DNA of 64,000 bases, from positions 13,575,386-13,639,385 of the forward strand of contig NC_088306.1 in the NCBI RefSeq assembly GCF_032854445.1. Reading direction: 5' to 3'. Of this stretch, positions 30,330-62,935 are shown piece by piece. Numbering within the stretch: position 1 is the first letter of the stretch; the number at the start of each line of letters is the position of its first letter. A program made the translations under genes and the position numbers. The stretch comes from Liolophura sinensis (taxonomy: Eukaryota; Mollusca; Polyplacophora; Chitonida; Chitonidae). Below the pieces are notes generated by a model. That model saw nothing but the letters and a program-made list of their open reading frames with translations. It searched no databases and was not told where the DNA came from.

Positions 30330-31510
30330 CATATCAGCGACGAGGATAAAATCCTAACTGAGGTAAACGGACAAGAGGCCGTAATAATCAGGTTACCTGT
30401 GACCATTTTACTCTTTATTGTAGATAGAGCTGTATGTTACTTCTATTTACTGACTCTTTGTTTAAGGCAAGGAACCTGACCCTATAGGTATATTTACTTT
30501 TGAAAACTTTCCATTTGTATGCGTTGTGCAGAAATTATGATATTTTAAATACACATTAAAACAAGGAATTCTAGAGTGAAAATGTTCGACTAACACTTTG
30601 TTCACCAAAAATATCTGTAGATATGTCATAAAATCAATTACATATAACTGCACTGATGTTGTAGATATTTACGTCTATTCTTTGCAAACTAGTTGTCTAT
30701 ATTCACTGATATGTGTATAAGACGGTAGTGAACATGCAACCAACTAGCATGGTGAATAAAAGTTTGCAACTAAATACAACATATACATCTTTATCAATAA
30801 GTATATGGTAAATGCAGTTTGCTTTTAGTTTAGACAATTAAGAGACAACTATCTGCGATGGTCACTAGTCTTATAGAGTTACACAAAAATTCAAAACACG
30901 ATTTAATGCCGTATAAATCCGAAAACAGTAACCTAGCACTACAGTCTGACAAGGGCCTCGCTAATGCATTGTTGTATGCAATTATTGAAAATATTTTCTC
31001 AGAAAAGAACTACAGTTGACAGCCATAAATGTTAAAAAACGGAATTTAGAGATCCACTGATGTATATCTGTTCAGAAATGTCGATATCTGTTTGGATATC
31101 GACATTAATCTTTTGAATTGGAAATTACAGGTTTCACTTGACTCGCAAGATCTGTGCTGCCCTCTTTGTTTCCCTCCCATATACAGGGTGTCTCAGAAGT
31201 CCCGCACCATCCTGATTTTCATTTTTTCACTGTGTTTCAGATTTAATACTGATTTAAATTTTTTTTTACCAAAGTGCCAAAAATGTACACATATCATGTA
31301 AATGACCGTAAGCACACGGTTAATAAAGAAATGAAACGCCTGTGACGTCATCGGTGTTCATCATAATCGATATGGTATGCAACGTTCCCCCTTAACATTG
31401 GACTGTTTGAATGCATTTTATTCTCTGCATGAACAATTCGCAAAAAAACATATAAGTTTTAGTGGTGTTTTGGACAGCTTGAAAACGGAAACAATAAGCT
31501 TTTTAATAAG
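30330..31510. other. Intergenic, no gene recognised
   Basis: Contains one dispersed-repeat motif near 30350-30410 (TCCTAACTGAGGTAAACGGA, CAGGTTACCTGTGACCATTT). Otherwise AT-rich, without exon-like blocks. CAGAAGTCCCGCACCATCCTG at about 31195 sits within a short open frame with no domain. Confidence 0.5.
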
Positions 31511-31514
31511 GTTT

Positions 31515-32520
31515 TATTGACATTTGCTAGCAGAAACTATGGAACAAGGTTCATATAACGTCTTTATTTGACCAGGACAAGAGCAGGACTGTTAAATAAA
31601 ATATTCTGAAGGAAGAACATGGAGATATCAAAAAAATCACACCAATTACTTGGGTAGTTGATTAAATCTTATCCTGTAAGAAGTCTTTATGTCATACCCT
31701 TTTAAATTACATTGTGCTGTACATGCGAGAGGCGTAATGTAGCCCGTCCTGAGTGAAACGAAGATACCAAAAAGAGACGCCAATTATTTGGGTCGTTAGT
31801 AATGTCTTATGCAAGGATACGTTATGTCATTTTCTTTTAAACCACACTAGACTATAAATGCAAAGAGAGCATAATATTGTCTTGAAATTCTGCAATAATA
31901 TTCCTATTCGACACATGTCATGTTTGTCAGAGTGAGCGCCGATAGCCTGTAATGTCATGTTCTTTCATATAACTGTCGTATATATATAGGAAAATCCAGC
32001 ATTTACGCTTACATTTTGACTGCACAGACTGCAAAGGAAAAAGGACAGAAAAAAATTGTACTGTTAGATGTACCTTAAATAGATGCAAAAGCTTGCAGCA
32101 TCCGAATGGTACATTTGTAATTGATCGAATCTGTCACTCAAATTGGAGAGCCTTTAGCTGACAGCACAATCTAGATGTGGGCGTTGACAAGACAGGGGGC
32201 GTTCTGATAATATGCCAGACTAGCCAATAAGTGGCAGGTAAGTATAAGTTTGCTTAGCAAAAATTCAAAGTATATACGTGTAAAGAGTTCTACGAGAGAT
32301 TAATTGTAAGAAAAGTCACAATCTCGGATAAAGCCGGAACAAGATCAGGGCAAACCAGATGGAGACATAAAAACAGAGAGGAGAGCGAAGGGGAAAATGA
32401 AAAAGAGGTTCCTCTGCAATAAAGACCTTTCTAGTCATGTTTATGACGGAGGTAGCACGAGGACTAATCCCCCTAATCCTGATGGTGGTGGGTCCACCTC
32501 TTTGTGGGTTAACGTTCTTT
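31515..32520 (+). repeat. Duplication unit 1 (flank of family member A)
   Basis: Aligns with 33695-34450. Shared blocks include TTGCTAGCAGAAACTATGGA / TTGCTTGCAGAAATTGTTGA, GATACCAAAAAGAGACGCCA / GATACCAAAAAGAGACACTA, ATTATTTGGGTCGTTAG / ATTATTTGGATTGTTAG, TATAAATGCAAAGAG, GGGCGTTGACAAGACAGGGG / GGGCGTGGACAAGACAGGGG and CGGAACAAGATC. The GATACCAAAAAGAG block occurs twice here (about 31620 and 31760), so this unit has an internal duplication of about 140 bp. Confidence 0.8.
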
Positions 32521-32603
32521 CGATTGTTGTATTTGCAAAATCAAAATCTGATTGGTGCTTCTTGGGCCATATTTATACACCTAAATTTGTCGGATCGGAG
32601 TGA
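32331..32603 (+). pseudogene. Small-protein family member A, start codon lost
   Basis: Aligned to member B, the B start ATG corresponds to AAG at 32331, yet the frame stays open from there: KPEQDQGKPDGDIKTERRAK then GKMKKRF. An internal ATG at 32397 could start a 68-residue product. The hydrophobic core present in B is replaced by a polar stretch, then GGSTRTNPPNPDGGGSTS. A phase-1 GT lies after PNPD (32485), the same place as in B. The B-like TATA element is also degraded (ATAATATG instead of TATATAA). Loss of start and TATA suggests a decaying copy, though expression from the inner ATG is possible. Confidence 0.45.
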
Positions 32604-32958
32604 ATTGGCTGTATGGGATCAGAGTTGTAATTTCTCCTGTGTGGACAAATCTAATCAGTTGAACCTAAGACACAGATCCTTTTCTGTATCATGGCAACAT
32701 GCAAATATCACCCGAAGTTTACCGCTTAGGTTCTGGGGTAAAGTAATTCTATGTGCTAGATTAAAATTTATTCTGTACTCTTCAGTGTTGCAACGTCGGA
32801 ATTACATTTTATCAGGAAGATCAATTGCAAACTTTTCTATACTTAGTTTGAATTCGTTATAAAAACATAAGACTATGAACCAGAAGCCATATTCTTACTT
32901 TGTCATACATCAAATCATTTGGTCGGGTAAGGCATCGAGTAATCGGAATTATTCCCCT

Positions 32959-33088
32959 GGGGCCGGTTTCATGAAGCGTAATTAGTGTTAAGTTGTCCTT
33001 AGTTAAGTGCACTTTATGTCTCTACAACATACTTTCCCATGCTGGTTAAGGGCTTACTTAAATAAGTGTGCTTCATGAAACTGGCCCC
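32959..33088. mobile_element. MITE with terminal inverted repeats
   Basis: 130 bp starting GGGGCCGGTTTCATGAAGC and ending GCTTCATGAAACTGGCCCC, a 19-bp inverted pair with one mismatch. Subterminal TTAAGTTGTCCTTAGTTAAG and GGTTAAGGGCTTACTTAA are also related. No coding capacity. A diverged copy lies at 11493-11605. Confidence 0.85.
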
Positions 33089-33694
33089 TTATACATGAAA
33101 TAAGTCAAGATGTTTACCATTCCTTGCTAGTTATCTTTAGAATCGCCTATACGATGAATATATAGCTGCGGGTTAGGAAGAGCGCTTATGGATTTTTTTC
33201 CAATGAAATGTATAAGTAGGACTGCAGATAGGAAGTCAGATTCGTCATGAATGCTTCGTCTCCTTTGGAATGGGCCTGTTTATGGGATCAAGTTATTTTT
33301 GGACTATCCCACACAATATGGTAATCAGACTCTCCCGCCAACAGGAAAAGTATACACACGTCAAGGAATGTGCATCTCAAAGAGAAAGGAAACAACAAAG
33401 GTAAAAAACAAAAAGAATCATCATCTCTATTTACACACTTTAATTTTAAGAAAACTATAACCTGCTGTCACATAGTTAAATGTGTAGAAGTTCTAATTTT
33501 AAACCCAGATTCAATTTTACAATCAATATCAGCTACAAAATGCACGCATGTCGTGTAAAAACATCAATGCCCGTCATATACCTTCCGGAAATGGTCAAAC
33601 GGAATCTTTAGTTTGTCCATTGCCGGTAAAACGTAGAAAGAACTACGGTCTCCGTAAACACTGAAGTCAACTTTTAAACATGATTTTCCTTAAA

Positions 33695-34450
33695 ATTTGC
33701 TTGCAGAAATTGTTGAATAAAGAAGTTCATTTGAAGTTTTCATTTGACAAAATCAAGAACATAGACTCAAAATGAACACGGAGATACCAAAAAGAGACAC
33801 TAATTATTTGGATTGTTAGCAATATCTTATCATGTAAGAATGTCTTCTGTCAGACATCTTTTATACTACAAAGGGTACTCTATAAATGCAAAGAGGGCAT
33901 AACGTAATCTGTCTTCAGATTGTATAGTAGTATGCCAATACGAGACAATGCCTTTGTTCGTTAGGGTGCGCTCCAGGGTTGTGATGCCATGCTGTGTCAA
34001 GTTACTGACGCCTTCCATATGCATTTAGACATGTGCAGAAGTTTGAGGCATTCTAATGGTGGAATTCTGTAAATCAAATTTGACAGCCTGTAGCTAACAT
34101 TATAATCTAGAATTGGGCGTGGACAAGACAGGGGCCGTCTGATATATAACACGCAAGATTAGCGGTTAAACAACATTGGAACTACATGTCTACATGTATG
34201 TAATAATCTTCAATTGTAATCCATGATCTTGGACAATGTCGGAACAAGATCCCAGCAAACTTTATGAAGACTTAAAAACACCAAAGATAATCAAGGGAAA
34301 AATGAAACGAAGTTTCCCGATAACTATGGCGCTCATGATGGTGATGGTGGGTATGAGCGAACAGGAACCAACTGAGGAACGGAGAGCATGCTCTGGAGGA
34401 GGTTGTTGCCAGCGCAATTGCCCAAATCCTGACTGTAAGTTTGTCTTCTT
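33695..34450 (+). repeat. Duplication unit 2 (flank of family member B)
   Basis: Second copy of the unit described at 31515-32520, about 2.0-2.2 kb downstream in the same direction. Similarity covers upstream DNA, the presumed promoter and the 5' half of the reading frame, and drops in the 3' half, where the encoded tails differ. Confidence 0.8.
34143..34149 (+). promoter_or_regulatory. TATA-like element of member B
   Basis: TATATAA about 93 bp upstream of the member B start, just after the conserved GGGCGTGGACAAGACAGGGG block shared with unit 1. Confidence 0.4.
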
Positions 34451-34454
34451 ATGA
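34236..34454 (+). CDS. Small-protein family member B
   Basis: 72 codons. It starts MSEQDPSKLYEDLKTPKIIK, then GKMKRSFPIT, a hydrophobic run MALMMVMVGM, then SEQEPTEERRACSGGGCCQR and NCPNPDCKFVFL. If translation begins at the inner ATG (34302), MKRSFPITMALMMVMVGM is a short signal peptide releasing a cysteine-rich peptide with five Cys (C, CC, C, C). After PNPD lies T|GTAAGT (34434/34435), a near-perfect donor, so the last residues may be replaced by a downstream exon that I could not place. Unspliced, PDCKFV matches the PDRKFV end of member E. Homology to members A, C, E and G is inferred from shared motifs. Function unknown. Confidence 0.5.
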   Translation: MSEQDPSKLYEDLKTPKIIKGKMKRSFPITMALMMVMVGMSEQEPTEERRACSGGGCCQRNCPNPDCKFVFL

Positions 34455-34459
34455 ATTCA

Positions 34460-37400
34460 AGATCAGCTGACCTGTGTTCTAATACGCGGACACGACATAG
34501 TTTACGCCTGTATTTGTATGTATGCATATTGATAAGTATTCGCTTTTTAACTTTAGCCTTTGATCAGGTAACTGAGGTTGGTTTACGCAGGGACTTTAGT
34601 ATATGTACTTATGGTTAATGTATTAGTGCAGCACAATGACTCAGCAGCCTGCCGTCAATTTAATTTAATTCTTTATTTATTTAACGAGGATTTCTCACAG
34701 CCTGATGGCTACTACGGAGATCTCCTCAAAGCAACAATTAACAACATAATAACTAACGAAGTACATACATACAAATATGAGAATAAATATATCAGATATA
34801 AGTAGAAATAAATTAATTATTATTTACAATGAGAACATCGTTATTACCATTACCATGGTCATAAAATCTTTCTGTATCTATCATTGATAAATTTATGCAC
34901 ACATTGAAAAACGAGTTTATTATCTTCGTAATTTAAATCTTTAGAGCCAAACAAAAGTATATTACATATATATGGTGAATATTGTGGAATAAAAACAGAA
35001 TAATTTGATCCCTGTGAGTTAAAGTTCAGCTCATGTTTGTGTCCTCTCCGATCGTACATGAGAATGTCTGTCGGCACCTGCGAATTGGTCTTGAGTGTCA
35101 CCTAGGGCACCAGTGCATTGTTCATAGTCACCAATGCATTGCATGTAAACCATATATAGCATGTACAAAAGAATGTGCCAACTGTAGTAAAGCGAAATTT
35201 GGACAATATTCGAAGGCGTACATGCAATGTGGCTTTTGGCACATCTCAGCAATTCTCAGCTTATGTGCAGTACGTATATATATGCATTTTAACACAGCAA
35301 TTTTCATCTTTACAGCTGTTACAATTTTCTGACATGTGACCTGCAAAACTGGGTGAAATTGTGACTTTTAACAATTTGCTCGCAATTGTGACAAAAGTAT
35401 ACATCGCAGGAAACATAAGACCGGACTGATGATCAAAGACGTCAAACTACCCCAAGTAACATGTTTAGAATCTACAAATATAAATTTTCAGTTTTCACAT
35501 GAAATCAGTTCCGCTGTATCAGCTAAAGCTTAATTTCCACACACAATGCATTCTTTTTATCCCTAGATAGTCTCCACGAGCACTTGTTACGTAGGCTATT
35601 ATTGAAATCAATCCAACTGACTTTAAATGTAGCATACGTAACAATACATAAAAATACCATTTTTTTGCATTTTTTACTTCCGGTTTGCTAATGTCATTAC
35701 CGGCTAGGTAAAATACATGCTCTTGTCTTGGAATGATGTAAGGCCTTAAGATTGCGCCTCTAGCTTCAAGGAAATATAACTACTTCCAGTTTCTAGGATG
35801 TCACTTCCGTTTGTGCAAAAATTGCATTTTTGGGAACGCCCAAAAACTAGTTAGAACTATTTGCATTACAGAAATTATTAGGTAAAAAAAGAATTTTTTG
35901 GTCATTTTCACTCAGTAGCGAACGAATTTCAGCTGAGAAAGTTTTGTGCAAGTGCAGTTTAACTTTCAGCTCTGGAGAAACGGCCAAATGTTTCCAAAAG
36001 TTAAAAAACACACCTTTAGGCCCTTCCCTAACCCATAGTGAAGTTTCAGGAATGTATCATTTGTCGTTTTTTTTTCACAAATTATATCACAAAACTGCCG
36101 CGAATAAAAATAATCTTATCGATTTCAAGGAGGATGACGATATCTTCACCAGTCCCAGTTTATCTGTATATCTGTACATCTTTATTAGTCAGTTTATTTC
36201 ATTTATATGTCATAGATGTAAAAAGTTAGGGAGGGTCGTTGTTTTTTTTTTTTTTGTGTGTTATTTTTTTCTTCTATCATTTTTCGATATCAGAAAAAGC
36301 TTACTTTTATATCTATAAACTTATTACTAGAATGTAATTCTATATCCACAGGGAAATGTTGTTCTTGACAGATGGCAGATATATTTGGCATATATATAAG
36401 GTAGATTAGTTTGCTGTGACATTAAACTATCAGTGTACAAGGTAATGACATACGTATATTTTCTAGACTGGGGCCTAAGGGCTAATGGTTTCTTACCGAA
36501 TGTTCTCTTTGATGAAACATGTCGAGTGCACGAAGGGATAGAAAAGTGATTGTAACATTTTAAGATATAAACGATTGAAGTAAGTCCGATTTTACCTGTG
36601 ATCACATACGCGAAAATTGGCAATTAGCAAAGCCAGAAATACCTTAGGATTCATGGAAACATGTTTTTGTAACGTACAGCTTTGATGTGTTGAACCAAAA
36701 AATACCAAGTTCGAGGTTAGTGAGGGGAGAAGTACAGAAGCCGATTCCGCAAAGGCATTTCTGACTTAAGTCAAGATTCAAAACCTCTTTACACTGCTTA
36801 AGTTTGGGGTTTTGAAGCAGATATTTGAACACTTTTGTCTTTTGCTAATACTAATGAGGTGGACAAATTTTAATTTCTTCATTCAAGACATAAGCTTTAT
36901 GGTGGTATTTCAGTGTTTTGGCTTACGTCAGATATGACTTTGTGAACAGAGCCCCAGCTCTGTATTACTGAAAGCTAAGCTGAAAAAAAGGAAACAGATC
37001 TCAGGTCTAATTCATACCGTAGATTCATCCAGGATGTAATAAAACGGACTGAAAACCTTACTATATTTACAATCAGCAATAGAATCTGAAAACTTCATTC
37101 ACGGAAAACTGTATAATGTAAAGAATACAGAATAATTTTTCAGGGTCGGGCTGATGAATGCTGAAGAGGTTTTTGTTTGCTGTGAAGTTTGTTGTGGAGA
37201 AGCATAAACTATCGAGTTTGAAACTGGGTGTCTACAACTATGACTGCACGGATTCTATTCATGCTTTGATGTAAATAATTAGAGAACTGTCAACTTGTCA
37301 ACAATAGCTATTGTATTACAATGACTGGCGGATGATGAGATAACCCCTATCGTCACTCCCCTAATTAAGCTCGTTAATATTATTTTTAAGCTATTTGGTT

Positions 37401-38535
37401 ATATATGTTTAGCGAATTTAAGATCCTTATATAAAAATAGAAAAAAATGCTCTCTGTTTATTTGGCTATTTACTTAGTAATAAGGCCAGGCAATGTGCTG
37501 TAATAAATACAAATATATTACCTTCTCAGGAATGAGTCTGAGAGCCAGCATAAATGTGTTTTAACTCTGTGAATAAAGCTTACAGAAGATCTATATATAT
37601 ATTGTACATTGTTATCTATGTACGCCGTAATACCTAACATTACATACTACAGACTGTAATACTGTGACTATTTTTCCAGACATGAACTTTTTGTGTTCAG
37701 TCTCTATAATGCCAGACCTTAACTACGTCAGTGCGAAAGGCTTCAACACAGCGAGAATATTAACATGGTGACAACAGTTTGTTACTTACTCGGCAAATGG
37801 TCACGCGCAATTTTCAATTTTTACAGGAGTTAATGGTTTTTTTCTAACTGTTCACGTAAATGGTTAACGACTCCAGCACGTGTCTCCTTGCACCATGGCT
37901 TAAGCAGAATAACAAATAATAATACATCACTAGTCTAACACTTAGGTATCCCGTTACATCACGATATTAAGAACAATACCTAATGGCCATTCATTACTGG
38001 TATTAAACTATACTCAAAATACTTATCTAACCTAGACTTCACTGGCATCGTTAAGTCAACCAAACTGCTACAATGCCAAAGCTTCAATTTAATCATTCAC
38101 ACGAACATTTTGTATGAAGTCCTAACTGAGGTAACCTGTCAATAGGGTGGACTTCACAGAATATTTGTGACAATTTATAAACTATCACAATGCTGTACCC
38201 GGTCGGTCTGGTTTTCTCAGTTTAGTTCTCAGTGCATTGTATAGAAATAATCATCGGTGCTTTGCTATTAAAGACGAAGAAAACATATAAAATACATAAA
38301 CTTGTGATGAAAGAGTGCGACAAGTTCGTTGTAGATGTGGTATTCAGTATTTTTTTTTATTTTTCTTATTTATATTTTTAATACAAAAAGTCACTTGAAA
38401 ATTAACTTCTTTATGGTGGGTATTCAGTACTAACTCTTGCTATATAGTGTCTTGGTTTAATGTTATAAACAAGGATGTGATACATGTTAAATAAATACAT
38501 ATATGTGTTCTAGAATTTGTCATTTTGATCCAACA
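34460..38535. other. Intergenic, no gene recognised
   Basis: Possible SINE-A scraps at about 34620-34655 (TTAGTGCAGCACAATGACTC) and 35010-35095 (CCCTGTGAGTTAAAGTTCAG, CTCATGTTTGTGTCCTCTCC), perhaps one copy split by an insertion. The 124-codon frame at 35944-36318 is driven by poly-T and has no domain. From 36.3 to 38.5 kb the sequence is AT-rich with short frames only; 38120-38150 carries the dispersed CCTAACTGAGGTAACCTGTC motif. Confidence 0.45.
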
Positions 38536-38539
38536 AATG

Positions 38540-38830
38540 TGTTCAGCATGGATTTTTATCATGTATATTTTTAATATATTCATAAATATTATCATAATTC
38601 AAATTAAATGCATACGTTTAGCAATACAACAACACATTTACATTCAAATTATTCAATTGCATCCTATCCTTATTTAGAGACGATATATATCAAGACGTTG
38701 TCCCAAATACCCGAAATATAAAAATGTTTTCAAATACCCTATTATCCAAATGGAGAAAATCAAAAACAATATTATATATCGTATTTGCAATAAGAATTCA
38801 CTTGGTAACACTTTTATGTTTTTTTCTCCT
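38540..38830 (+). repeat. Block shared with 47800-48060
   Basis: ATTATCATAATTCAAATTAA, ATGCATACGTTT here aligns with ATTATCATAATTCAGATTAA, ACGCAAATGTTT at about 47833. About 95-125 bp later, ATATATATCAAGACGTTGTC aligns with TTATATATCAAGATGTACAG. This indicates an old dispersed or segmental duplication across the small-protein cluster. Confidence 0.6.
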
Positions 38831-39057
38831 TTAAATGACGGTTGTGTTCCAAATATCCCCCACCGATTAATCTCCACGTGTACATCGTTTTAATGAAAGC
38901 CAAATAACCCAATAATAACATAAAATTCACTGAAGATCAAATAAACAACCCAGTGTACGCTTTTTGCAGAAAAATATTTATAAAATGCTTCATGGGAGTG
39001 AAATGTACGTTGTCCTTAAATTCGTCAAGTGACCTGTTTTTTTAAAATTCATCTTTA

Positions 39058-39058
<1 letters not shown>

Positions 39059-39137
<79 letters not shown>
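39059..39137. repeat. (TA)n microsatellite
   Basis: About 39 TA units. The minus-strand open frame with Ile-Tyr repeats is an artefact. Confidence 0.95.
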
Positions 39138-39140
<3 letters not shown>

Positions 39141-39724
39141 TGAACTTTGCTAACCCGATGCATGGCACACATACATTTGGTTATTTTGCTGAAATTGTTC
39201 ACTGCCGGATATTTTGCAAAAAAAAAGGTCAAAGAAGATTTTACTGATATTTTAAAGTCATGCGACTGTCATAGAGCAAATACAAAACTGACATTTCGAG
39301 GAATCGGTACAGTTGAATACCTCTGTAACTGATCCGATACCTCTGGTGTGAGATGCAGTGTTCGTTACACAGCCAAACACCTCATGATGCGCACTGACCT
39401 CACGTCATATAAAATATGCTCGCTATTTCAAGTAATCTCTCTGAAGTCTGAGAGGTCAGATGGTATGAACTTCAGTCATAAGAAAAGTTACATATGTAAA
39501 TACATGTACACTTTTAGGATTGCTAATCATGATACTATACCATGTCTGGCGCATTGTGGTTGTCAAGACAACCGTCGACCTGGGGTCAGTCCGCTTTGTC
39601 TACATGAGACGTTATATCAGGTGTCTTCAGCAATGTGTGCCAGTAACACAAAACAGAAAAACGTATCGGTATTGTTAAATTGTCTGCTGGATATTGCCAA
39701 AAATGTTTCTCAAGGACTCTTCTC

Positions 39725-39815
39725 GGTGCCCCCCCCCCCCCCCCCCCGCCCCCATAATGCTGGGAATTGTCGTATAGATGAAATATTCTTGAGCACGGTG
39801 TACAACACCAAGGGA
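39725..39815 (+). mobile_element. Poly-C tract and SINE-A 3' end
   Basis: A run of about 20 C at 39728-39747 leads into CATAATGCTGGGAATTGTCG, TATAGATGAAATATTCTTGA, GCACGGTGTACAACACCAAG, the SINE-A tail. The 178-codon open frame across this region includes the SINE tail and is not accepted as a gene. Confidence 0.8.
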
Positions 39816-39999
39816 ATGAAAAAAGAAATAAAAAAAGTGTTGAAAGTAATGCTAAAAAACCAAGAATGTAAACAATCGTGCTGACACACCTAAGCCTTCT
39901 CAAGCTTTAGACAGGCTGCTCTTTCTGCTATTTTGTTTTACTGGATGCGTGTAAACTGTTGAAGTTGAATGGTGAAAGTGAATAAAAGTTTGTTTTTAT

Positions 40000-40160
40000 T
40001 TTTTATTTATTTTGAATTTATTTTTTTCACCGGATCTTTACACCGGATAGCCAGTATTATGGTGGGGAAACCCACGACCATCCGCAGCTTGCAGACAGGC
40101 TTACCTACAGGAAGCCAGCATGAGCTGGACTTGAACTCACAGCTATCGCTCTGGACTAGC
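40000..40160 (-). mobile_element. SINE-A, tail-altered copy
   Basis: Reversed SINE-A body: GCCAGTATTATGGTGGGGAA, ACCCACGACCATCCGCAGCT, AGCCAGCATGAGCTGGACTT, GAACTCACAGC. The head beyond the B box is lost. Confidence 0.8.
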
Positions 40161-40164
40161 ACGC

Positions 40165-41825
40165 AAACCATTGTCAGAAAGAGAACAAAAAACGTCCCGG
40201 GATTTGTGGAATAAACATCAGCAAATTTTAATAATCAGGTGTTCAAGTACAATATTAAAGATTAAGTGGGCACTGCCTGCAAATATCAATTTTGATGGGC
40301 AAAGGTTTCCCGACCAGTTTTTATTTTGGTTGAGCCGTAATGTTTTTATATGAGTATAATAGTGGGCATAGCGGAACTTGTTTAAATGATGGCGATAAAA
40401 ATTAAAGCCTTTTTGCAAAAGTCATTTTGTTATTCTCTGCTGTCGACTATTGACAATGGTCCAAATCCAACATTTGTCACAAAACCTAGTAGCTAAGGGA
40501 GAAAACCATGAACGTGTCATAAAATTTAGTCATGGCACATTTTCCAGACGCGAAGCAGTTTGTTCATGTACACTGTACATTCACAATCATAATCGTATCA
40601 GGTTTTGTTGACAACATCCCCCCCACCCACCAACATGACACAAACCCACCACCATCACCACCACCCATCGCTCCGTTCTACTCTCACTGAGATGTGGGGC
40701 ACTAGTCGTTCGCTCAGTTTAAGATTTGTTGGAGAACACCTGCTTTCCACTAACATGGAGTTCACATAGGAAAGTTCGTCAGTAACTTGCCAGTAGTGAA
40801 TGGTTTACCTGTGGCATTTTGGTTTCCTACACCCATACCACTGGCAGCCATCGTGTTGGGGAAATTGATTGATTATGGGGTTAAACAACAGTCAAATACG
40901 TTAAATATTGTCATACATTATAGCAAGACACCACTGAAAAAATTTGTTCGTGTGAAGTGATATTTTACAGGTTACGTGTGACCATTTGTCGCTGCTAAGG
41001 TTTTGCAATACTGCATTATTTTATATTCCCATATTCATGCAAGTTTAAATATTAGCAAAGGATGTTTACAAACCACATATTTAAATGTCGAACAAAATAC
41101 TGTTGATAACTACCTTTAATACTATTCCACTCATGATGACGTAATTGAAACTGAATTAATCTGATATCCATTGAATGATGTGTGTAAAATATCAAAATCT
41201 TACGTTTTTAACGTTTTGAGTAATTTTGAATTTAGGAAGGTTGTCGACTTTCTCTGGCCTAAAAGATATATTCTAAATGCCTAAGCCATACCTGAATTCT
41301 CCCAACTTATAGCTCTAGTCTAAAATGGCTGCCGTGGTACGATCGTGACTAAGGGAATTCATTTGCTTTAAGCGATGATAGTCAGCTCTACAAAATCACC
41401 CAACAGTCTCTGACAACTTCTTGATCTTTTGCCCGTGATGACAATTTTACCTGAAGGTTTGGCTTCGGCCCAATTTGTACGGTAATCTGTCCTGAATCAG
41501 ACCTGTGGGCTATAGGTGCACATATAACATATGAATACCAAAACTATTTTTTATCTGGAGCTTAACAGACACTATAGTGCGCAAAAATGCACCGTGCACA
41601 GCCTGTTATAATACGCCTTGTAGTCGGCATTCTATTGGATGTTGTAACTGCTTACATTAAAACGATATCCTAAGGTGACAGATCATGACTGACAGGAATA
41701 AAGTAGTACGTGTACCTTCTTTGTCGCTCTTTTAATTTGAAACATATATGTTGCTGGTGGAAACTGTCAATCACGAATGTAAGCTATACAGACTAATGCT
41801 GTGATTGGTCAGAATGGTGAGAAAC
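40165..41825. other. Intergenic, no gene recognised
   Basis: No exon-like block. Notable only for a CCCCCCCACCCACCAACATG stretch near 40620 and a TACAGGTTACGTGTGACCATT motif near 40970, which is repeated elsewhere in the window (about 30390, and reversed at about 440 and 55905). TATATATA at about 41830 precedes member C by about 150 bp. Confidence 0.5.
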
Positions 41826-41983
41826 GGCATATATATTTTTCTGTGTTTCTGCTATGTGGGCTCCTAAGCATTAATTTACAGAAAATAAAAATTGTTTAAG
41901 AGCTGATACTAGGTTATCGTGGGGGATTGATCACTTACGATATCACCAGCAGTACGACGTTGCAGCAACAAAATTGTTTAATT

Positions 41984-42148
41984 ATGGGGTCCAAAGGGAA
42001 AATGAAAAGAAGCTTTCCTATAACGCAGGCATTACTGGCGCTCCTGTTAATGGAATGGATGTCGATGACAAAGGAAGGCCCCACTACGCGGAGGAACAAA
42101 CCTTGTCCTCATAGCAATGGTAGGGCAGTTTACTCTGTGACTGACTAG
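41984..42148 (+). CDS. Small-protein family member C, exon 1
   Basis: Starts MGSKGKMKRSFPIT, identical to member B over GKMKRSFPIT. Then comes a hydrophobic core QALLALLLMEW, then MSMTKEGPTTRRNKPCPHSN. From the inner ATG (42002) this is a clear signal peptide. Unspliced, the frame ends at 42148 (GRAVYSVTD). A donor G|GTAGGG after CPHSN (42119/42120) is in the same place and phase (1) as the donor in B. Joining to the acceptor at 43968 gives DGGCCC then stop, a secreted peptide ending in three cysteines. TATATATA lies about 150 bp upstream. Family homology is strong with B, weaker with G (GPSTRR). Function unknown. Confidence 0.5.
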   Translation: MGSKGKMKRSFPITQALLALLLMEWMSMTKEGPTTRRNKPCPHSNGRAVYSVTD

Positions 42149-42166
42149 TTAAAAATCTTTGGTCTT

Positions 42167-42168
<2 letters not shown>

Positions 42169-42232
<64 letters not shown>
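42169..42232. repeat. (TA)n microsatellite
   Basis: About 32 TA units, inside the proposed intron of member C. Confidence 0.95.
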
Positions 42233-42236
<4 letters not shown>

Positions 42237-42639
42237 GGGTGGGAGAGGTGGTGTTTAAAAAAATGTGATTAACACATTTTCTCTGTGACTACATGCACCG
42301 CAATAGCTTTGTTTGTCTGAGATTAAATGATATTCAATATAGCACTGAGGTTTTCATTGCAATGACATAAACAGGACGGACGAAAGCATTCTAAATATTC
42401 TGGACATCACTGGGATGGAATAAACTTTCAAGTGTATCAAAGCAACGCCGTTGCTTATAAATCAAAATCAAACTGCACTTCCTCACGTAGCCAATTTTCT
42501 GTTCGGCATACTTGTCCCGTCCGGTTTTTATAGATACTCTTAGATTTTGTTTCTAGATTTAAGCATATTTGCACTATTAAATCCACTAAAATTCATTCAT
42601 ATATCCGCTTATTTCAATTAGCTTCAATAAAATAACCCA

Positions 42640-42940
42640 ATTTCCAGGGTCATTGTCAGGAATAGACAAAATTTTCTTCCCTGTTTTAATGAGTACATTA
42701 AAAGAAATATTTTTCTTATTTAATGATTTTAATTATTTACATATTTGTTTACTTTTTCTTGACAGCCATTTTATAACGTACTAAAAATATTGCCATTGCC
42801 ATATTGCCGAAATATAATAATGCAAAATTTTCTGTCCTTATCCTTTTTTTCTTGAGCTGCCTGAAAGAAACATTTTTGTTTTTTTTAATTATTTTAATTA
42901 TTTATTTTATTCTTGACAGCCATTTTATGGCGAATACTGC
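42640..42940. repeat. Two-copy tandem duplication, 153-bp period
   Basis: TTAATGATTTTAATTATTTA and TTCTTGACAGCCATTTTATA (the latter near 42757) recur as TTAATTATTTTAATTATTTA and TTCTTGACAGCCATTTTATG (near 42910). The intervening DNA also aligns loosely (AAAATTTTCTTCC / AAAATTTTCTGTCC). Confidence 0.7.
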
Positions 42941-43968
42941 AGTTATATGACGGAAACTAAATGCATGTGACTGTGCTGGACCCACCGTTCCTAGCTCATG
43001 CAGTATATCGTCATCGAGGCGGGGTGTTTTACTACACGAGAGTAGATACCCGGCATTATCAATGTTGTACGCACACTTTATGTCGTCTCATGTTCAGAAC
43101 TAAATGATATTTTCGTGCGGAAGTTGAAAGAAGGTCTTTGCTCAAGTCCTGTTTATCTTCAGATTTTTGTCTATGATTACAAAACAACAACAAAATACTC
43201 TCTAAACAGTTTTTGCCGGAGGTTTTATCTCTATTTAAAATTAAATGAAATGAAAAAACATCACAGAATTCAGAGGGAATTTATGGCGAACTTGTAACCA
43301 AAGGGGTTCAAAGCTTCCAAAGCTATAAAATCTTGTGGTTTTTGCTTTTATTACGTCACAACTGTCGGTGGACATGCAATGTGTGCTTATAAAGCATATA
43401 TGAGGAACACAAGCACAGCAATGTCACAGAGGAATACCACGTGACCTTCTATGTTTCTTGTTCATGAGTCTCCAATTGTTTCTACATAATGTTTTAACAG
43501 AAACAAAACAGCACGGGAACAAATGTATATATGCCTTAATAATATATTATTCATGATATTTAAAAAAAACGTATCCTTGTTATGATTGTGATGTTGCTTA
43601 ACCGAGATTTCGCAGTTCGAAGTAAGCCAAATCGCCATTTTATCAATTTTTACACGTCAGGCCCGATTATATTTTTATCATCGAGAACGCAGCTGTTTCC
43701 GCTGAATTTACTTTCAGCCGTTTGAGCGTGGGCTAGGAGTTTCTGAGTTCTGTGGTATCCAATGGCCTAGCAAGAATTCCACAGTGCAGTTTATTTATTA
43801 AGTCAACATGTATCTAGCACGTCAGATAAAATGGCGAGGACCACTCAGATCTGCTTCCACCACTCTTCCGCAATAACAAAGGTTACATTGTTTGTTGTCT
43901 TTTCTTCAAAGAACAAACTTATTCCACTATACCTGTATTAAAATGTTATACACTTTACCTGTTTTCAG

Positions 43969-44012
43969 ATGGAGGTTGTTGTTGCTGAAAGTGGAGGATA
44001 AGATAGAATAAA
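43969..44012 (+). CDS. Candidate exon 2 of member C, cysteine end
   Basis: Acceptor CCTGTTTTCAG at 43958-43968, donor AATAAA|GTAAGTTG at 44013. In phase 1 from member C exon 1 it reads DGGCCC then TGA at 43986-43988. A further exon-like start at 44212, after TTTTCTTTCCAG, repeats GATGGAGGTT and in phase 0 reads VCQCCICDGG stop (44212-44244). Both are short, so chance is possible, but two neighbouring Cys-rich exons after consensus acceptors are notable. The intron would be 1.85 kb. Confidence 0.35.
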
Positions 44013-44299
44013 GTAAGTTGCGTATCTTTTCCTGATTTATTACCGGGCTTCTGTTGTTATCGCTTTGCCTCGCGCCTTGTCCATGTACACATCTTTCACT
44101 ATGTAAAAATTTTACATTGGGATAAACTTCTGATAACAGGACTAAAATTTCAGGTTCCGAGGAAATATTGATAAAACATAATATTTGTGATTTTGTGTAT
44201 TTTCTTTCCAGGTTTGCCAGTGTTGCATCTGTGATGGAGGTTAATTTTCTGCCCCTCGTGTGTCTGAAGTGTGTAAAAATTCTCTACAGATTGAAAACT

Positions 44300-45590
44300 T
44301 AAACGTTATATCATGACTAAAATTTTGACCCGATATTGCATGTTATGAGCATCATGAAACAAAACTTGGTTGTACAGATGTACCGCATATAGTTTACCGC
44401 CTTCGTATCTGTTTGGAAACTTGTCATCCGAACCGTTATGATAGGCGTTTACGGATTTGAAAAGTTGTCTCCATACTTGTAGTGAGCATTTCCATACGTG
44501 AAAAGTTCGGCTGTGCAATTCATTGCTTGAGACCTGTTTATGATTTTGTCTTCTGCAGTGGTATATTTTTTTCCTCCAACAACTCTTTTTCAACGACAGT
44601 GTTCTTCAAAACGATTTATTTAAAAGTATAAATGACAAAAAAGTTTGCTGTGCAATCAGATGAGGTAAATTGCAAATATTTTATGGCTGAAAGAATTTGT
44701 GTGAACAAAAGACACCTGATCACGTTGTCCAGGAGACCATTACTGCTTTTGACTTCCTTAACTATTATCAATAAAGGAAGTTTGCAAATGTATTATTAAC
44801 TGTGCTGTTATTGTACAACCCCATCATTTCATTTTTTACTTGAGTCTAACCATTAGGCTCAGAAAAAAAGCGGCCGAGGTACTGCGATGCATAAGATCAA
44901 GTTGGGATATAACACACATATATATCAATGGTTGCCCTGCTAGCTTCAGGCACAGTTTCTCCGTATGTAGGCTGGGGTCACCTAGCTTGAATTACGTTAG
45001 ATAGGCTTTGTTAGTGGTAAAGGTTAAACTGACAATGGACAATAACCAAGGTACATACAACTATCACTCATAGCGATATTGTTCCATTTAAAAAAATATA
45101 AAGCGAAGTACTTGATCAGTGGTTACAACCCCAATATTTCCAGTCACATAAACCTCCAAAAATGAACAAAAAACAGCACTTATTTGAGTTTTAACTGCTA
45201 TTTGTTATTTTGAAGAATATGGATAGTAGAATAAAAAACAGAAACCAGATCGTGTTCAGCGGGTCAAAGTTTATCTGAATGCGTTACTCGTGTATTTTAA
45301 ATTCAATAAAAGTTCACCTTTGACGAGCCTTGTACAGGTTTCATTGTAATCCAATCGCTTTTGCAATTTTGAATCTGTGGGAATGCTGTAAAGGTTACCA
45401 AACCTAAAACCATACCTTACCATATTTAAGCTTGATCCCTGCTGTGGTTTTGTAGAAGATTATTAAAGATTTTCGTCATTTAAGAATATAGGATAAAAAT
45501 TAGGTCACATCATTTAGTTTCGTTTGCATACTACTTTTGTTTTTGACTATCTGCAGTAGTTTGGTTCAGCCTTGACAAACAGTTTTCCGG
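44300..45590. other. Intergenic, no gene recognised
   Basis: AT-rich sequence with no exon-like block and no repeat other than scattered short motifs. The 95-codon minus-strand frame at 44306-44593 has no domain. Confidence 0.5.
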
Positions 45591-45648
45591 ATGCTGGGTG
45601 AAAAGTGGATGGTGAGAACATTTCTTCAATCGTCCGGGGGGGAGGGGG

Positions 45649-45818
45649 CTCCGTGGCTCAGTCGGTTAGCGCAGCGTAATGACCCAGGAGTCTCTCACCA
45701 ATGCGGTCGCTGTGAGTTCAGTCCAGCTCATGCTGGCTTCCTCTCCGGGCCCTACGTGGGAAGGTCTGCCAGCAACCTGCGGATGGTCGTGGGGTTTCCC
45801 CCGGGCTGTGCTGGGGAT
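45649..45818 (+). mobile_element. SINE-A, 3'-truncated
   Basis: Head GGCTCCGTGGCTCAGTCGGT, TAGCGCAGCGTAATGACCC, body AGCTCATGCTGGCTTCCTCT, CCAGCAACCTGCGGATGGTC and CCCGGGCTGTGCTGGGGATC. It ends before the tail. A G-rich tract GGGGGGGAGGGGG precedes it. Confidence 0.88.
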
Positions 45819-46090
45819 CGTTATCAAAGTGACTATAAGCACTTTATTACAAAAAATCTAAATGACATACAGTGTGATGTTTAGATGTACAAGAGTCAAT
45901 CAGCGGTTACAAGTTCTTTGCTTGGAAGCCTAATAAATATCGAAACGAAAAATAAAAATTAAAAAAAAACCCCCGACCACCAAAGAACCACATCATTACT
46001 CTAGCTTAAAGGGATACATAATTGTTTCCTATTGGTTGATTTAAGAGATAGACAAGTCCAGGCTATGGCCAGACTAAGCTGTTTGTAGGT

Positions 46091-46273
46091 ATGGCAGATT
46101 TGTTGAATCGTTCTACATGCGTTCACCCCATGAAAGCGTGGCTCCACTATCAGTTACTCATTGTCAAGTCTATATCCCCTTTTGAAGATCTATGCATCGA
46201 AACGGACATTCGTAGACCAGCCATCAACCAAAATGGACGTTGGGAGTCAATAATCGCAAGAACATATATATAA
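46091..46273 (+). CDS. Doubtful small-protein family member D
   Basis: A 60-codon frame starting MADLLNRSTCVHPMKAWLHY and containing RRPAINQNGRW. At DNA level AGACCAGCCATCAACCAAAATGG resembles AGGCCGTCAACAAATCCTAATGG of member F, which is the only reason to include it. It has no KGKM start and no signal peptide. Could be a relic or chance. Confidence 0.2.
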   Translation: MADLLNRSTCVHPMKAWLHYQLLIVKSISPFEDLCIETDIRRPAINQNGRWESIIARTYI

Positions 46274-46851
46274 TTATGTTATATTATATACAATTCCCCG
46301 GAGTAAGTGGAATTAGTTAATCTTCGAAGCAAAATGCAACAGATTCTGGAAGCTCTGTTCGTATTTTTGTATGAGAATTATCCTCACCATAAAACTTAAG
46401 AAAATTAAGTGAAGGCGTTTGGTGGGACAAACCATTTTTTGCAGTAGGTCTGATAACTTTAGATGTTGATTGAAATCGTCACACAACACACCAGATTTCA
46501 CAAATGCTACAAGGTGAGAGATGTACACGCCATTTGGAGTACTTTTCGGTGTATTGCTCTCAAAGAAACGATAACTTACTTTGTCAAAATTGAAACTTGT
46601 CGGAATGTCTGCGTGACAGCAAACCGTTTTGATGTTTGTACAAATACAGATCCAGACAAGACGGGCTATGGTATTGTCTGTCTGAATATCTCGGGAGATG
46701 AAATTGCCACCCCTTTGTCAGCTTATGGCTGTCTAGGGAAACGGGAAAAGATGCAATGTACCGGCTTCACGCACGCAATAATCTATTAGCAATTTATTGA
46801 GGTGATATTAAGATGTCTAGATAAACGATTGTGACATTTGCTGCGTCGTGC

Positions 46852-46859
46852 TATAAAAG
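46852..46859 (+). promoter_or_regulatory. TATA box of member E
   Basis: CTATAAAAGG, a near-consensus TATA box 225 bp upstream of the member E start. With a start site about 30 bp downstream it would give a 5'UTR of about 195 nt. Confidence 0.5.
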
Positions 46860-47076
46860 GATAGTCACCACGTTAGTATTTCAGTATCTTGAATATTGGC
46901 GAACAGTTAATTGTCGGAAGCGTAATGTAAAAAGCAGATCAGTTTTTCATGACTCCAGGCATAGGTTGAGGTCAGACGAAACGCAAATCTAGGCCCTGAC
47001 ACAAGTAACAGCTAATCAGCATATATACAAAACAAACTCAGAGCGTTTTCAGCTGGCGTTTAATTCATTTACAACC

Positions 47077-47241
47077 ATGGCTGCCAAAGATAACATGGAT
47101 TTATATTCCATCAAATATATAAGGACTCGTTTTCGTCATGGGCCATCAACAAAACCCAATGATGTCATCCACTCTGACGAGGATCCAACTGAGGATGACC
47201 CACCGCCGCCAGTGTATCCAGACCGAAAATTTGTTATGTAA
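47077..47241 (+). CDS. Small-protein family member E, acidic tail
   Basis: 54 codons: MAAKDNMDLYSIKYIRTRFR, HGPSTKPNDV, then an acidic proline-rich tail (SDEDPTEDDPPPP) and VYPDRKFVM. The start lies in an excellent context (ACAACCATGGC). There is no hydrophobic core, so the product should be intracellular. GPST and PDRKFV link it to members G, F and B. The charge pattern (basic N-terminal half, acidic C-terminal half) is shared with G. No known family recognised; too short to exclude chance without transcripts. Confidence 0.5.
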   Translation: MAAKDNMDLYSIKYIRTRFRHGPSTKPNDVIHSDEDPTEDDPPPPVYPDRKFVM

Positions 47242-47406
47242 TTATGATATCGCCAAATGATTACACACATCTGATTCATTTTTATTGCCCATCAAATACT
47301 GAAGCAAGAGAAAATCTCATGAATGTTAGCAATATATTTATTGTTAAACCATAAAAAATGTTATGGACAATAACTGGGTGTATAAAGAGATGAAGGGAAA
47401 AGCCTT

Positions 47407-47625
47407 ATGCTGGTGATTTGGATTGATAAGGAGAGGCCAAGGAAGGCAACTTACAGAGAATCAGGCAAAACCAAATTTTCTCAGACCCGTAGGCCTATAA
47501 AATCTCAAAAGGAGGCAAATGTGGAACAGGTCTTGAGATTCATGTACTCTAGAGATCTAGATAGGCCGTCAACAAATCCTAATGGCACCATTTATTTTGA
47601 CAGCGATCATCCGTCACCATTTTGA
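47407..47625 (+). CDS. Small-protein family member F
   Basis: 72 codons. Begins MLVIWIDKERPRKATYRESG, then KTKFSQTRRPIKSQKEANVE, QVLRFMYSRDLDRPSTNPNG and ends TIYFDSDHPSPF. GKTKF sits where others have GKMK, and RPSTNPNG corresponds to GPSTKPND of E. It starts only 165 bp after E ends, with TATAAAG at about 47380, so it may be a separate short gene or a coding exon of a longer transcript with E. An acceptor at 48433 (TTGTTTTACAG) leads in phase 1 to PQKNRCENCMNSRTRGSQQ, a possible cysteine-containing end, but F lacks a GT donor at the expected spot (GGC). Confidence 0.35.
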   Translation: MLVIWIDKERPRKATYRESGKTKFSQTRRPIKSQKEANVEQVLRFMYSRDLDRPSTNPNGTIYFDSDHPSPF

Positions 47626-47799
47626 CGATCCAGACCTAACACCTAGTACGTGATGATGTTGCAAAATATTTAAACTGTTCTAATCTGTTCAGGACGCTGT
47701 TACCCTCTTCGTCTGAGGAGACAAAGGAACGCAAATATTAAAGGCAACGCTAGAATTTGTTGTTTTCAGTCAACGAATGTGGTTATCCTGAATTTTAAA

Positions 47800-48060
47800 A
47801 ATATTTATATTTTTGATATATGTATATTTACAGATATTATCATAATTCAGATTAAACGCAAATGTTTGGATATAAAAATAAATTCTGAAATATATAAATG
47901 AATTTATTCAACATGCATCAGACCCTTATAGTATATTAGGTATTATTGAACAAAATTATATATCAAGATGTACAGCCGCAAGTATCCAACAAACTAAACT
48001 ATTTTCAAGAAGCCTTTTCTCCTGAAAAAAAAAACGGACAAAAATCATTTACAATTAATC
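47800..48060 (+). repeat. Block shared with 38540-38830
   Basis: See the partner block: the common phrases are ATTATCATAATTCAGATTAA and TATATATCAAGATGTACAG. It lies about 180 bp downstream of member F; no family member was found at the matching place near 38.3 kb. Confidence 0.6.
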
Positions 48061-48734
48061 TTGAGGCTCTTTCAGCTTATATTTGCATCATTTGTATGTT
48101 TCTTCTCCCTTAAACTTTTAATTGATTGTTGGATGGAATCCATCGAAAGTCCTAATCTCGTAAGTGTATTTCTCAAAACCGAAAGCATGGACATCACCGG
48201 TCCGAAAAGCAATAACAGTTAATGGGTTAAGAATCAAATCTGTTCACGGCCAGTTAAAAATCATAGTATTTTTGTGGTCGCCCTGTGGCCAAACTGTTCG
48301 ATCCTTAAATTCTCATGGTACAAAGTTTCTCATTTTTCTGACGACCATCACTAGTCACCTGCCTCATGAATTCTTATGTCGTATACGACCAAAAGTCGAA
48401 ATTGTTGGATTAACTGTAATATTTGTTTTACAGGACCACAAAAAAATCGCTGTGAAAATTGTATGAATTCGCGTACAAGGGGTTCACAACAGGTATTATT
48501 GTTTAAACAGTCTTAATTCATCCTATACTATCCTAGAGAATTTGTACTGATGCCAATGTTTATGAATGTGAACATAATACAGACGAAAGCAAATATATTT
48601 AGGCCTTTTACATGAGGTGCATTCAGTCTATTTCGGTTTTAGTCTTAAACGTTGGCGTGGCTTCATTTTTTCGGTTATTGGAGTATAAATGCAAAAATTG
48701 ACTACTCGAGTGCTTATGCTTTCAGTTAATTACT

Positions 48735-48910
48735 TTGCTTTAATTAATTGATTATTTAATTTATTTGATTAGTGTTTTACATCGTACACAAGAATATTTC
48801 ACCTATACCATGACGGTCATCATTATGGTAGAAGCAACCGGAGCCCAGGGGAAACCCACGACCATCCGCAGGTTGCTGAGGTTATGAGCTGGACTTCAAT
48901 TTACAGCGAA
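48735..48910 (-). mobile_element. SINE-A, head-truncated
   Basis: Reversed tail TTTATTTGATTAGTGTTTTA, CATCGTACACAAGAATATTT, body ATTATGGTAGAAGCAACCGG, AGCCCAGGGGAAACCCACGA, CCATCCGCAGGTTGC. Part of the body between the CCTTCCCACG and GAGCTGGACTT blocks is deleted. Confidence 0.85.
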
Positions 48911-49165
48911 CTTGGTGGTCCTGTGATTAAAGGAAGTTGAGTTGCTTACGCAGATGTCAATTCAAATGCGAGATGTCAACTTACCCCTTAGCACCAAAAT
49001 CCAAAGCTAATGCCCCTAAAATGTGTTCAGTGTGGGCTTGTTGAAGCGTAGTTTGGTGGCCTTGTGATTAAAACAAATGGAGATATTAACCCAAATGTCA
49101 ATCCAGATGCACATTGGCAAAACTAGTGCCACGAAAGTGTGCCCAATGTATCTGTGTGTAAATGT
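48908..49165. repeat. Two-copy tandem duplication, about 141 bp
   Basis: CTTGGTGGTCCTGTGATTAA, AGGAAGTTGAG at 48911 and GTTTGGTGGCCTTGTGATTA, AAACAAATGGAG at 49051. AATGCCCCTAAAATGTGTTC and AGTGCCACGAAAGTGTGCCC follow at matching offsets. Confidence 0.7.
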
Positions 49166-49550
49166 ACCAAGTTTAGTGATTGCTATACGACGGTTTATTT
49201 GGATTTCGTTATAACTGCAGCTGATACTATTAAACTCATTCCTTGGATCATTCTGTCTTTCTGATTTGCATGCTATATATATTCCATTTCCGAGAGAAAA
49301 TTTAAGTCAACAGGTCAGCTTAGGTGCTCATGAGTTTCAGCAAACACTTGGGAAAAAAAAACATAAAAAAACGAGTCAGTCGACAAGAAAATTGTCTACA
49401 CAAATTTGTTTATAGAATTTTTTCTCTTTACATACTAGTTATTTTGTTATTTAAGTCTTTAACACACCATACCATCAAAGGTGGTTGTATTGTCTTGTTT
49501 TTTTATATAAACCATATATTTCTATGTTAAATGTTTGATCCTTGGCAACC

Positions 49551-49712
49551 ATGGGAAATAGAGAATCTAAGGTATCTAGTTCATGTCCGAGAAAGGATTT
49601 ATTTAATGTCATTTGTAGCTACCAATTGGACTATAGCTTGAAAAAGTACACAAGTATACGGAATCATTGTAACATTGTTAACTTGAAAGCCCGCAGTTGC
49701 CTTGTTGGCTGA
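49551..49712 (+). CDS. Small ORF with strong start context (MGNRESK)
   Basis: 53 codons starting MGNRESKVSSSCPRKDLFNV and ending NIVNLKARSCLVG, with four cysteines. The start context GGCAACCATGGG resembles that of member E (ACAACCATGGC). MGNRESK could be an N-myristoylation start. It lies between members F and G on the same strand, but shared motifs are too weak to assign it to the family. TATATATA lies about 280 bp upstream. Confidence 0.3.
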   Translation: MGNRESKVSSSCPRKDLFNVICSYQLDYSLKKYTSIRNHCNIVNLKARSCLVG

Positions 49713-50143
49713 GCAGGCTGTTGAGTAATGAAGAAATAGCTCTACGCAATAGCTGTACACCTCGCGTTTTCCATTGTGACATATAACTGGTGTAAAAATC
49801 TCTCAGTATAACCAGTTTTTTTATTTCTATACAAATTTAAGCCACAGTTGATATTTACGTATATATTCCAGAAACCTGTCATTAGACATGTTCTATCAAA
49901 AGGGTTTTTGTGGAGAGTGGCTTAGACCCGCCTTCGCTGTAGGCGAATCATGGCTGTATGCTTTAACAACTGGTGCAAAATCATGCCATGTCCGCGCATG
50001 ATCAGTGGGTGATTTATTGGGACGTGTTCCAAAAAATATATTAGTACTTAATAGTCGATCGACTTTAGATTGAGGCGTACAGTCAAGAAGAAAGAGACGA
50101 AAATTCAAGGCTTTAGTAAACTGTCTTAATAACAAATGCAAGT

Positions 50144-50314
50144 ATGGCTGGCAAAGGCAAAATGCAGAAGAATTTACCAAAAACCAAAGTCATGGAAAAC
50201 CGACGTCAATATCGTGACGGGCCATCCACACGACGTGATATTCCAAACGCTATCAACCTGGACGACGATCAGCTTCCAGATGACGATCCAGATAGGAGAT
50301 GTAGTACGTGGTGA
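50144..50314 (+). CDS. Small-protein family member G, acidic tail
   Basis: 56 codons: MAGKGKMQKNLPKTKVMENR, RQYRDGPSTRRDIPNAINLD, DDQLPDDDPDRRCSTW. The KGKM start matches members B and C (SKGKMKRSFP); GPSTRR matches C (GPTTRRN) and E (GPSTKPN); the acidic DDDQLPDDDP tail matches E in character. No signal peptide. The N-terminal half is very basic (about 11 Lys/Arg in 31). A nucleic-acid-binding or chromatin role would fit the charge pattern, but that is speculation. AATATATTA lies about 110 bp upstream. Confidence 0.5.
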   Translation: MAGKGKMQKNLPKTKVMENRRQYRDGPSTRRDIPNAINLDDDQLPDDDPDRRCSTW

Positions 50315-62499: not shown

Positions 62500-62935
62500 A
62501 TGCATGGACTGATTTCTGCGAAATGAAGTGGCACACTAAAAAAAAGGAAAATCCTCAAGACCCGGCATTTCCTTATGTTCCGCAAGTCGCCCAGCATTGT
62601 CCAAGGTTTGAACAGCATTTCTCACTGTGGTTGAGCTAGGAAACTCTATCTAATATCAACTAATATTTGATAAATTTTACAAGCCGGCGCTTCCTTGTGC
62701 TTTGCAAGACGCCCAGCATTGTCATACATTTGAACAGCCTTTCTCACTGTGGTTGAGCTAGGAAACTCTATCTAACATCAACTAATATTTGATACATTTT
62801 GCAAGCTGGCGCTTCCTTGAGTTTTGCAAGACGCCCAGCATTGTCATACATTTGAACAGCCTGTCTCACTGTGGTTGAGCTAGGAAACTGTATCTAATAT
62901 CAACCAATATTTGGTATATTTTACACTGCATTTCA
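62500..62935. repeat. 122-bp tandem array, three copies, plus leader
   Basis: CCAGCATTGTC occurs at 62591, 62713 and 62835, exactly 122 bp apart, each followed by TTTGAACAGC, TCTCACTGTGGTTGAGCTAG, GAAACT and ATCAACTAATATTTGATA. The leader (62500-62585: ATGGACTGATTTCTGCGAAA, GTGGCACACTAAAA) aligns with 60653-60745 (ATGGACCAATTTCTGAGAAG, TGGTGGCACACTGAGAG), so a dispersed repeat seeded the array. Confidence 0.92.

Follow-up and report, generated by a model that had tools for sequence, protein, structure and literature searches.

We found that the window, a stretch of 64,000 nucleotides from the chiton Liolophura sinensis, contains, judging from its sequence, some six copies of a short, fast-changing coding piece that are related to one another. 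Between 32.3 and 50.3 kb, members A, B, C, E and G of the plus strand code for peptides that are related to each other and, more weakly, to that of F. The best explanation, in our view, is a family of short first coding exons arranged in tandem and seen at this locus alone, a reading on which our confidence is evenly balanced. The sequence-only reading had described a cluster of rapidly diverging small-protein genes in this region, and the frames and motifs that it listed do occur in the sequence as written. The relationship that it proposed holds for A, B, C, E and G and weakly for F, but does not extend to D in the frame given.

Relatedness was assessed against all ORFs of 20 aa or longer in the six frames of the window (n = 2194; 31 low-complexity ORFs were skipped). 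Self-matches aside, A, B, C, E and G each matched another member best. Protein pair scores were highest for B–C (81), followed by A–B and C–G (65 each), E–G (about 57), A–C (51), E–F (48), A–G (45) and B–G (43). Because the top unrelated ORF reached 36–42 for queries A, B, C, E and G, the B–G pair is meaningless on its own. When 31–51 kb was shuffled 100 times with dinucleotides preserved, the top pair reached 60 and the sixth-ranked pair 43 at most, compared with 48 for the real sixth; the fourth real pair (57) would not stand out alone against the shuffle best of 60. Plus-strand ORFs of at least 45 aa numbered 88 in the real region and 64 on average in the shuffles. Leave-one-out profiles recovered G (1.9 × 10−10), A (2.5 × 10−9), B (2.4 × 10−6), C (1 × 10−4) and, weakly, E (0.03) from an alignment that had been built from all six members, which favors recovery, and they missed F. 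The membership of F is indicated by its score with E (48, compared to 43 for the best unrelated ORF) and by an end block common to F and G. At the DNA level, A–B alone was strongly similar; similarity was modest for B–C, A–C and E–G (reached by 0 of 150 shuffles) and weaker for F–G and E–F (each reached by 1 of 150) and C–G (4 of 150). The search from −49 to +211 kb brought up no further members, and a match between E and an ORF at 111.4 kb that resembles a sulfotransferase (score 50) was treated as chance.

The copies, all on the plus strand, differ in how completely they retain the shared features. Member B (34236..34434) has an ATG, KGKMKRSFPIT, a hydrophobic stretch and PNPD, and member C (41984..42119) an ATG, KGKMKRSFPIT, a hydrophobic stretch and GPTTRRN. 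Member E (47077..47241) combines an ATG in good context with GPSTKPN and an acidic tail, and member G (50144..50303) an ATG with KGKM, DGPSTRRDIPN and an acidic tail; both are basic ahead of the core and acidic behind it. Position −3 of the ATG is A in B, C, E and G, and position +4 is G in C, E and G. Member A (32331..32484) carries KGKMKKRF and GGSTRTNPPNPD and lacks the aligned start codon, the ATG that starts B reading AAG at the aligned site in A. Member F (47500..47645) is degenerate, having, as judged by eye, lost the aligned ATG and undergone a frame shift before DDPD. Secretion was addressed through hydropathy only, in 12-aa windows, the best of which scored 2.24 in B, 2.01 in C and no more than 0.01 in A, E and G. 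The frame formerly given for D matched no member above chance. A possible member relic, KIYASKRTFVDQPSTKMDV, lies in another frame at 46134..46250 of the plus strand (score 47 to G, E-value of only 5 against the member profile), with no start codon seen and no donor scoring above 2. The few kept motifs amid unrelated stretches fit the fast change proposed earlier, as far as sequence comparison can indicate it.

The members are probably coding, at least in part. Within the KGKMKRSFPIT block of B and C, 7 of 33 bases differ and all of the changes are silent, and therefore the block is probably translated. Random change produced seven silent differences in 6 of 1,500,000 simulations, a figure that is too favorable since the block was chosen because its peptides match. 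The 60 bases just upstream of the block have 22% identity (ungapped). Protein scores in frame 0 exceeded those of the next frame for B–C (81 vs 52), C–G (65 vs 41), A–C (51 vs 30) and A–G (45 vs 29); frame 0 also topped every other frame tried in B–G and between G and the relic at 46134–46250, and was only narrowly ahead in E–F (48 vs 43). The similarity of A–B and E–G is not frame-specific, with another frame winning in both (78 vs 65 and 64 vs 58).

A non-coding segment with a regulatory or RNA role, duplicated in tandem and containing ORFs by chance, would account for several of these features: the upstream DNA of A and B is conserved as much as their ORF, ORFs of 50 aa occur often in the region (41 in 20 kb, both strands), and codon usage gave no coding signal, with members at the 68th–89th percentile of local ORFs and other frames similar. 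Differences between A and B in the N-terminal block are likewise spread evenly over codon positions (7/9/7), as expected if the stretch is untranslated or if A is dead. However, the changes within the B/C block are silent, and the C–G and A–G similarities are clear as protein in one frame and weak as DNA, such that we regard a non-coding origin as very unlikely.

Where the shared part ends bears on what kind of coding piece it is. In A, B, C, F and G it stops at a GT donor of the same phase. Textbook donor weights were used for scoring, and the anchor was the codon that closes the motif (PNPD for A and B, CP for C, DDPD for F and G, YPD for E). Within 12 nt of this anchor, A and B have a donor scoring 3.5 or more at +1, and C, F and G have one at +10, all in phase 1. 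The chance of a qualifying donor was 0.027 per anchor, and that of finding one in at least three of four lineages 8 × 10−5 (A/B and F/G counted once each), before allowing for the cut-off and window, both of which were set after the scores had been viewed. The donors lie on the plus strand at 32485 in A (score 3.7), 34435 in B (ACT/GTAAGT), 42120 in C (ATG/GTAGGG), 47646 in F (CTA/GTACGT, phase 1 in the DDPD frame) and 50304 in G (GTA/GTACGT). A has a second, stronger donor at +4 (32488, score 8.5), also in phase 1, and G a stronger one at +17, which is outside the 12-nt window and not in phase 1. No donor above 1.6 occurs near the motif end of E, and no phase-1 donor was found there. Past the donors, the sequences of A, B and C are unrelated to each other. 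F and G retain the block that surrounds the donor, though not the bases immediately before it.

Because five of six copies have a phase-1 donor where the shared part ends, we read the members as first coding exons; they resemble the opening parts of longer genes more than small genes that are complete in themselves. The peptide ends probably differ from those set earlier: the KFV ending of B is the donor GTAAGTTTGTC itself and would be intron under a first-exon reading. The PDxKFV that had been described as common to B and E is probably an accidental match, with B's copy lying past the GTAAGT donor. The sequence-only reading took the members to be intact single-exon genes for small proteins of 54–72 aa that end at the ORF stop codons. 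E fits this description best, with its good-context ATG, a TATA-like box upstream and no donor, and F and G both end in ST(W)-stop when read in the DDPD frame. Against it stand the phase-1 donors of the other five members, the unrelated sequence that follows them in A, B and C, and the absence of the aligned start in A and F, which make complete single-exon genes rather unlikely.

We searched for later exons to which the first exons could be joined. Pfam searches of the plus frames over 15–83.8 kb (except about 1 kb at 30–31 kb) returned only alpha-amylase, with no match in any of the three plus frames over 50–83.8 kb; on the minus strand, Pfam was applied to four single ORFs. PDB scans of the plus frames over 50–64 kb gave nothing better than an E-value of 0.17, and two capsid proteins (0.17 and 0.29) were taken as chance. 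Both types of scan would miss an exon of an unfamiliar family. Comparing plus-strand pairs of the regions that follow the members, interspersed repeats aside, revealed no second exon clearly duplicated between members. The best pairs were weak and AT-rich: 38495–38674 with 47674–47898 (score 60), 36400–36546 with 51762–51857 (score 56, E-value 0.025) and 37422–37532 with 44126–44299 (score 50, E-value 0.033). The stretches at 36400 and 51762 each have an acceptor-like AG, but their frames differ, and they were rejected as exons. Later exons are thus either short and unconserved in each copy, or common exons of an unfamiliar family, or do not exist, the copies standing alone.

If the copies were alternative first exons of a single downstream gene, each with its own promoter and all joined to the same later exons, this would fit their common strand, the same donor phase in five of them (E being the exception) and the lack of a later exon clearly duplicated along with them. 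However, neither Pfam (plus frames, 50–83.8 kb) nor PDB (50–64 kb) yielded a candidate gene, and the next plus-strand ORF resembling an ordinary gene, at 93.4 kb, appears by eye to have its own start and a signal-like head. We therefore consider a single downstream gene unlikely.

Upstream of the members, roughly 0.9 kb of DNA is common to A and B in pieces of 65–87% identity, comprising a unit at 31499..32330 for A and one at 33671..34235 for B, both on the plus strand. TATA-like boxes (CTATAAA) lie within the shared DNA at 31852 and 33880. Neither this DNA nor its TATA-like box had been picked up in the earlier reading. Another TATA-like sequence, CTATAAAAG, at 46851..46859 (plus strand) upstream of E may be a chance occurrence; such sites are common, with 15 on the plus strand of 31–51 kb. 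An alpha-amylase gene is located upstream on the same strand (Pfam PF00128; best PDB matches alpha-amylases).

The chiton was first published as Liolophura japonica and renamed L. sinensis in a correction (PMC12441733); its genome paper (PMC11068029) includes a transcriptome from tissues such as foot, gill, gonad and heart, and lists the genome of another chiton, Acanthopleura granulata, at 606 Mb. The distribution of the family was assessed by searching the chiton's own genome (609,464,459 bases in 632 contigs, the window being C12:13575386–13639385) with G, C, E and the A unit, and none of these queries had a significant match outside the cluster. The A unit matched A and B only, G and E each matched only themselves, and C found B at an E-value of 0.07 and one C7 place at 2.8, a chance-level match with a stop inside. 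The sensitivity of the search was limited, as the E and G searches missed each other and distant members could be missed as well; at this sensitivity the shared motifs do not derive from a genome-wide non-coding repeat. Together with the relatedness of the members and the silent B/C changes, these results support the part of the earlier interpretation that concerns a coding tandem family, restricted to this locus within its own genome, and the donors leave the term small-protein genes doubtful.

Pfam assigned the members to no family; the nearest candidate, DUF4874 for F, was rejected (E-value 0.12, 12.5 bits vs a cut-off of 30.1). PDB profile searches returned an antibody light chain (E-value 0.0023), in which no stretch passes alone, and two more immunoglobulin chains (1.2 and 1.4), all judged to be chance matches. 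None of the 21 pattern matches to G in IMG/VR was a relative, the motif strings of the members did not occur in the literature searched, and searches by topic, judged on titles and the starts of abstracts, found no description of the family. An AlphaFold model of G, built on six sequences, says little (pLDDT 60.5, pTM 0.12). Within the Pfam, IMG/VR (G) and literature searches made, the family appears to be undescribed, while its kind, the tandem family restricted to one locus, is itself well known.

Lineage-restricted, or orphan, gene families occur in tandem arrays, and the cluster resembles them in that one array contains several short coding units related to each other, with no match to a known family and some decayed copies, but differs in that its units look like first exons. 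In the UGT1A and protocadherin clusters, variable first exons are joined to shared exons. The present copies are similarly tandem and on the same strand, with equal donor phase in five of six, whereas their exons are much shorter and shared downstream exons were not found in the plus frames scanned; no sequence relation is claimed. A 539-aa protein is comparable in coming from a chiton and having a region that is disordered in part, but it is glycine- and serine-rich and contains WF-rich and H-rich segments, a composition that by eye the window peptides do not have.

If the copies are short first coding exons, each would have its own promoter and start codon and would encode about 45–65 residues, with a basic KGKM head, a G-P-S/T-T-R/K core and a proline or acidic tail, before being spliced from the phase-1 donor to later exons. 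Members B, C, E and G may be functional, and A, D and F may be decayed or decaying copies, in a birth-and-death pattern. Speculatively, head and core could form a short docking or phosphorylation site in the flexible N-terminus of the product, and the hydrophobic stretch of B and C may direct the product to the membrane or out of the cell. No result here supports the defense, signaling or reproductive peptides suggested previously.

Reading the shared part as ending at splice donors shifts the target from free peptides of 54–72 aa to spliced transcripts. If expressed, the copies would add an undescribed family of coding sequences to a class of molluscs for which few genomes exist, and would offer a compact, clearly delimited example of tandem exon copies arising, diverging and decaying. 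It is improbable, though conceivable, that the array consists of alternative first exons, each driven by a separate promoter, and supplies one chiton gene with interchangeable, fast-changing N-termini, some hydrophobic or secreted and others basic then acidic and soluble; if true, this would be a UGT1A-type switch built from an undescribed exon family. Should the copies share later exons, they would provide a new molluscan example of diversity generated by promoter choice.

Upstream of the two plus-strand putative first coding exons A and B, we found a 53-bp element in three copies (31620-31672, 31758-31810 and 33778-33830), two of which are 87% alike, and the TATA-like boxes of both exons follow copies of this element at a short distance.

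Numerous copies of a single interspersed repeat, which we take to be SINE-like, occur at 5.05-5.35, 20.03-20.28, 30.1-30.35, 35.0, 39.75, 40.06, 45.64-45.81, 48.75 and 59.74 kb, and remains of a Tc1/mariner-like transposase were recognized by eye on the minus strand (26042-26611). Two AT-rich segments (38510-38835 and 47750-48114) form a direct repeat pair with 63% identity that in parts also shows inverted matches, and are perhaps a palindromic mobile element. Tandem arrays were found with units of 122 bp (62582-62925) and 111 bp (20429-20676).

Outside the window, gene likenesses between 93.4 and 203 kb were assigned by eye from open reading frames, giving HHIP-like (93.4 kb) and sulfotransferase-like (111.4-112.2 kb) genes on the plus strand, and LRR-type GPCR-like (119-121 kb) and cytochrome P450-like (189-203 kb) genes on the minus strand.

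The multi-exon alpha-amylase gene upstream of the exon cluster (15202-20476, plus strand; PF00128) has an exon whose end is overlapped by the 111-bp-unit array, which may be a duplicated piece of an exon. GH13_1 is present in gastropods and bivalves according to a 2019 bilaterian survey (PMC7003070), the main text of which contains neither "chiton" nor "Polyplacophora". The closest PDB matches of the chiton gene were 6sav, 6sao and 6sau, with Taka-amylase among further ones, and it appears to be of the GH13_1 'fungal' type.
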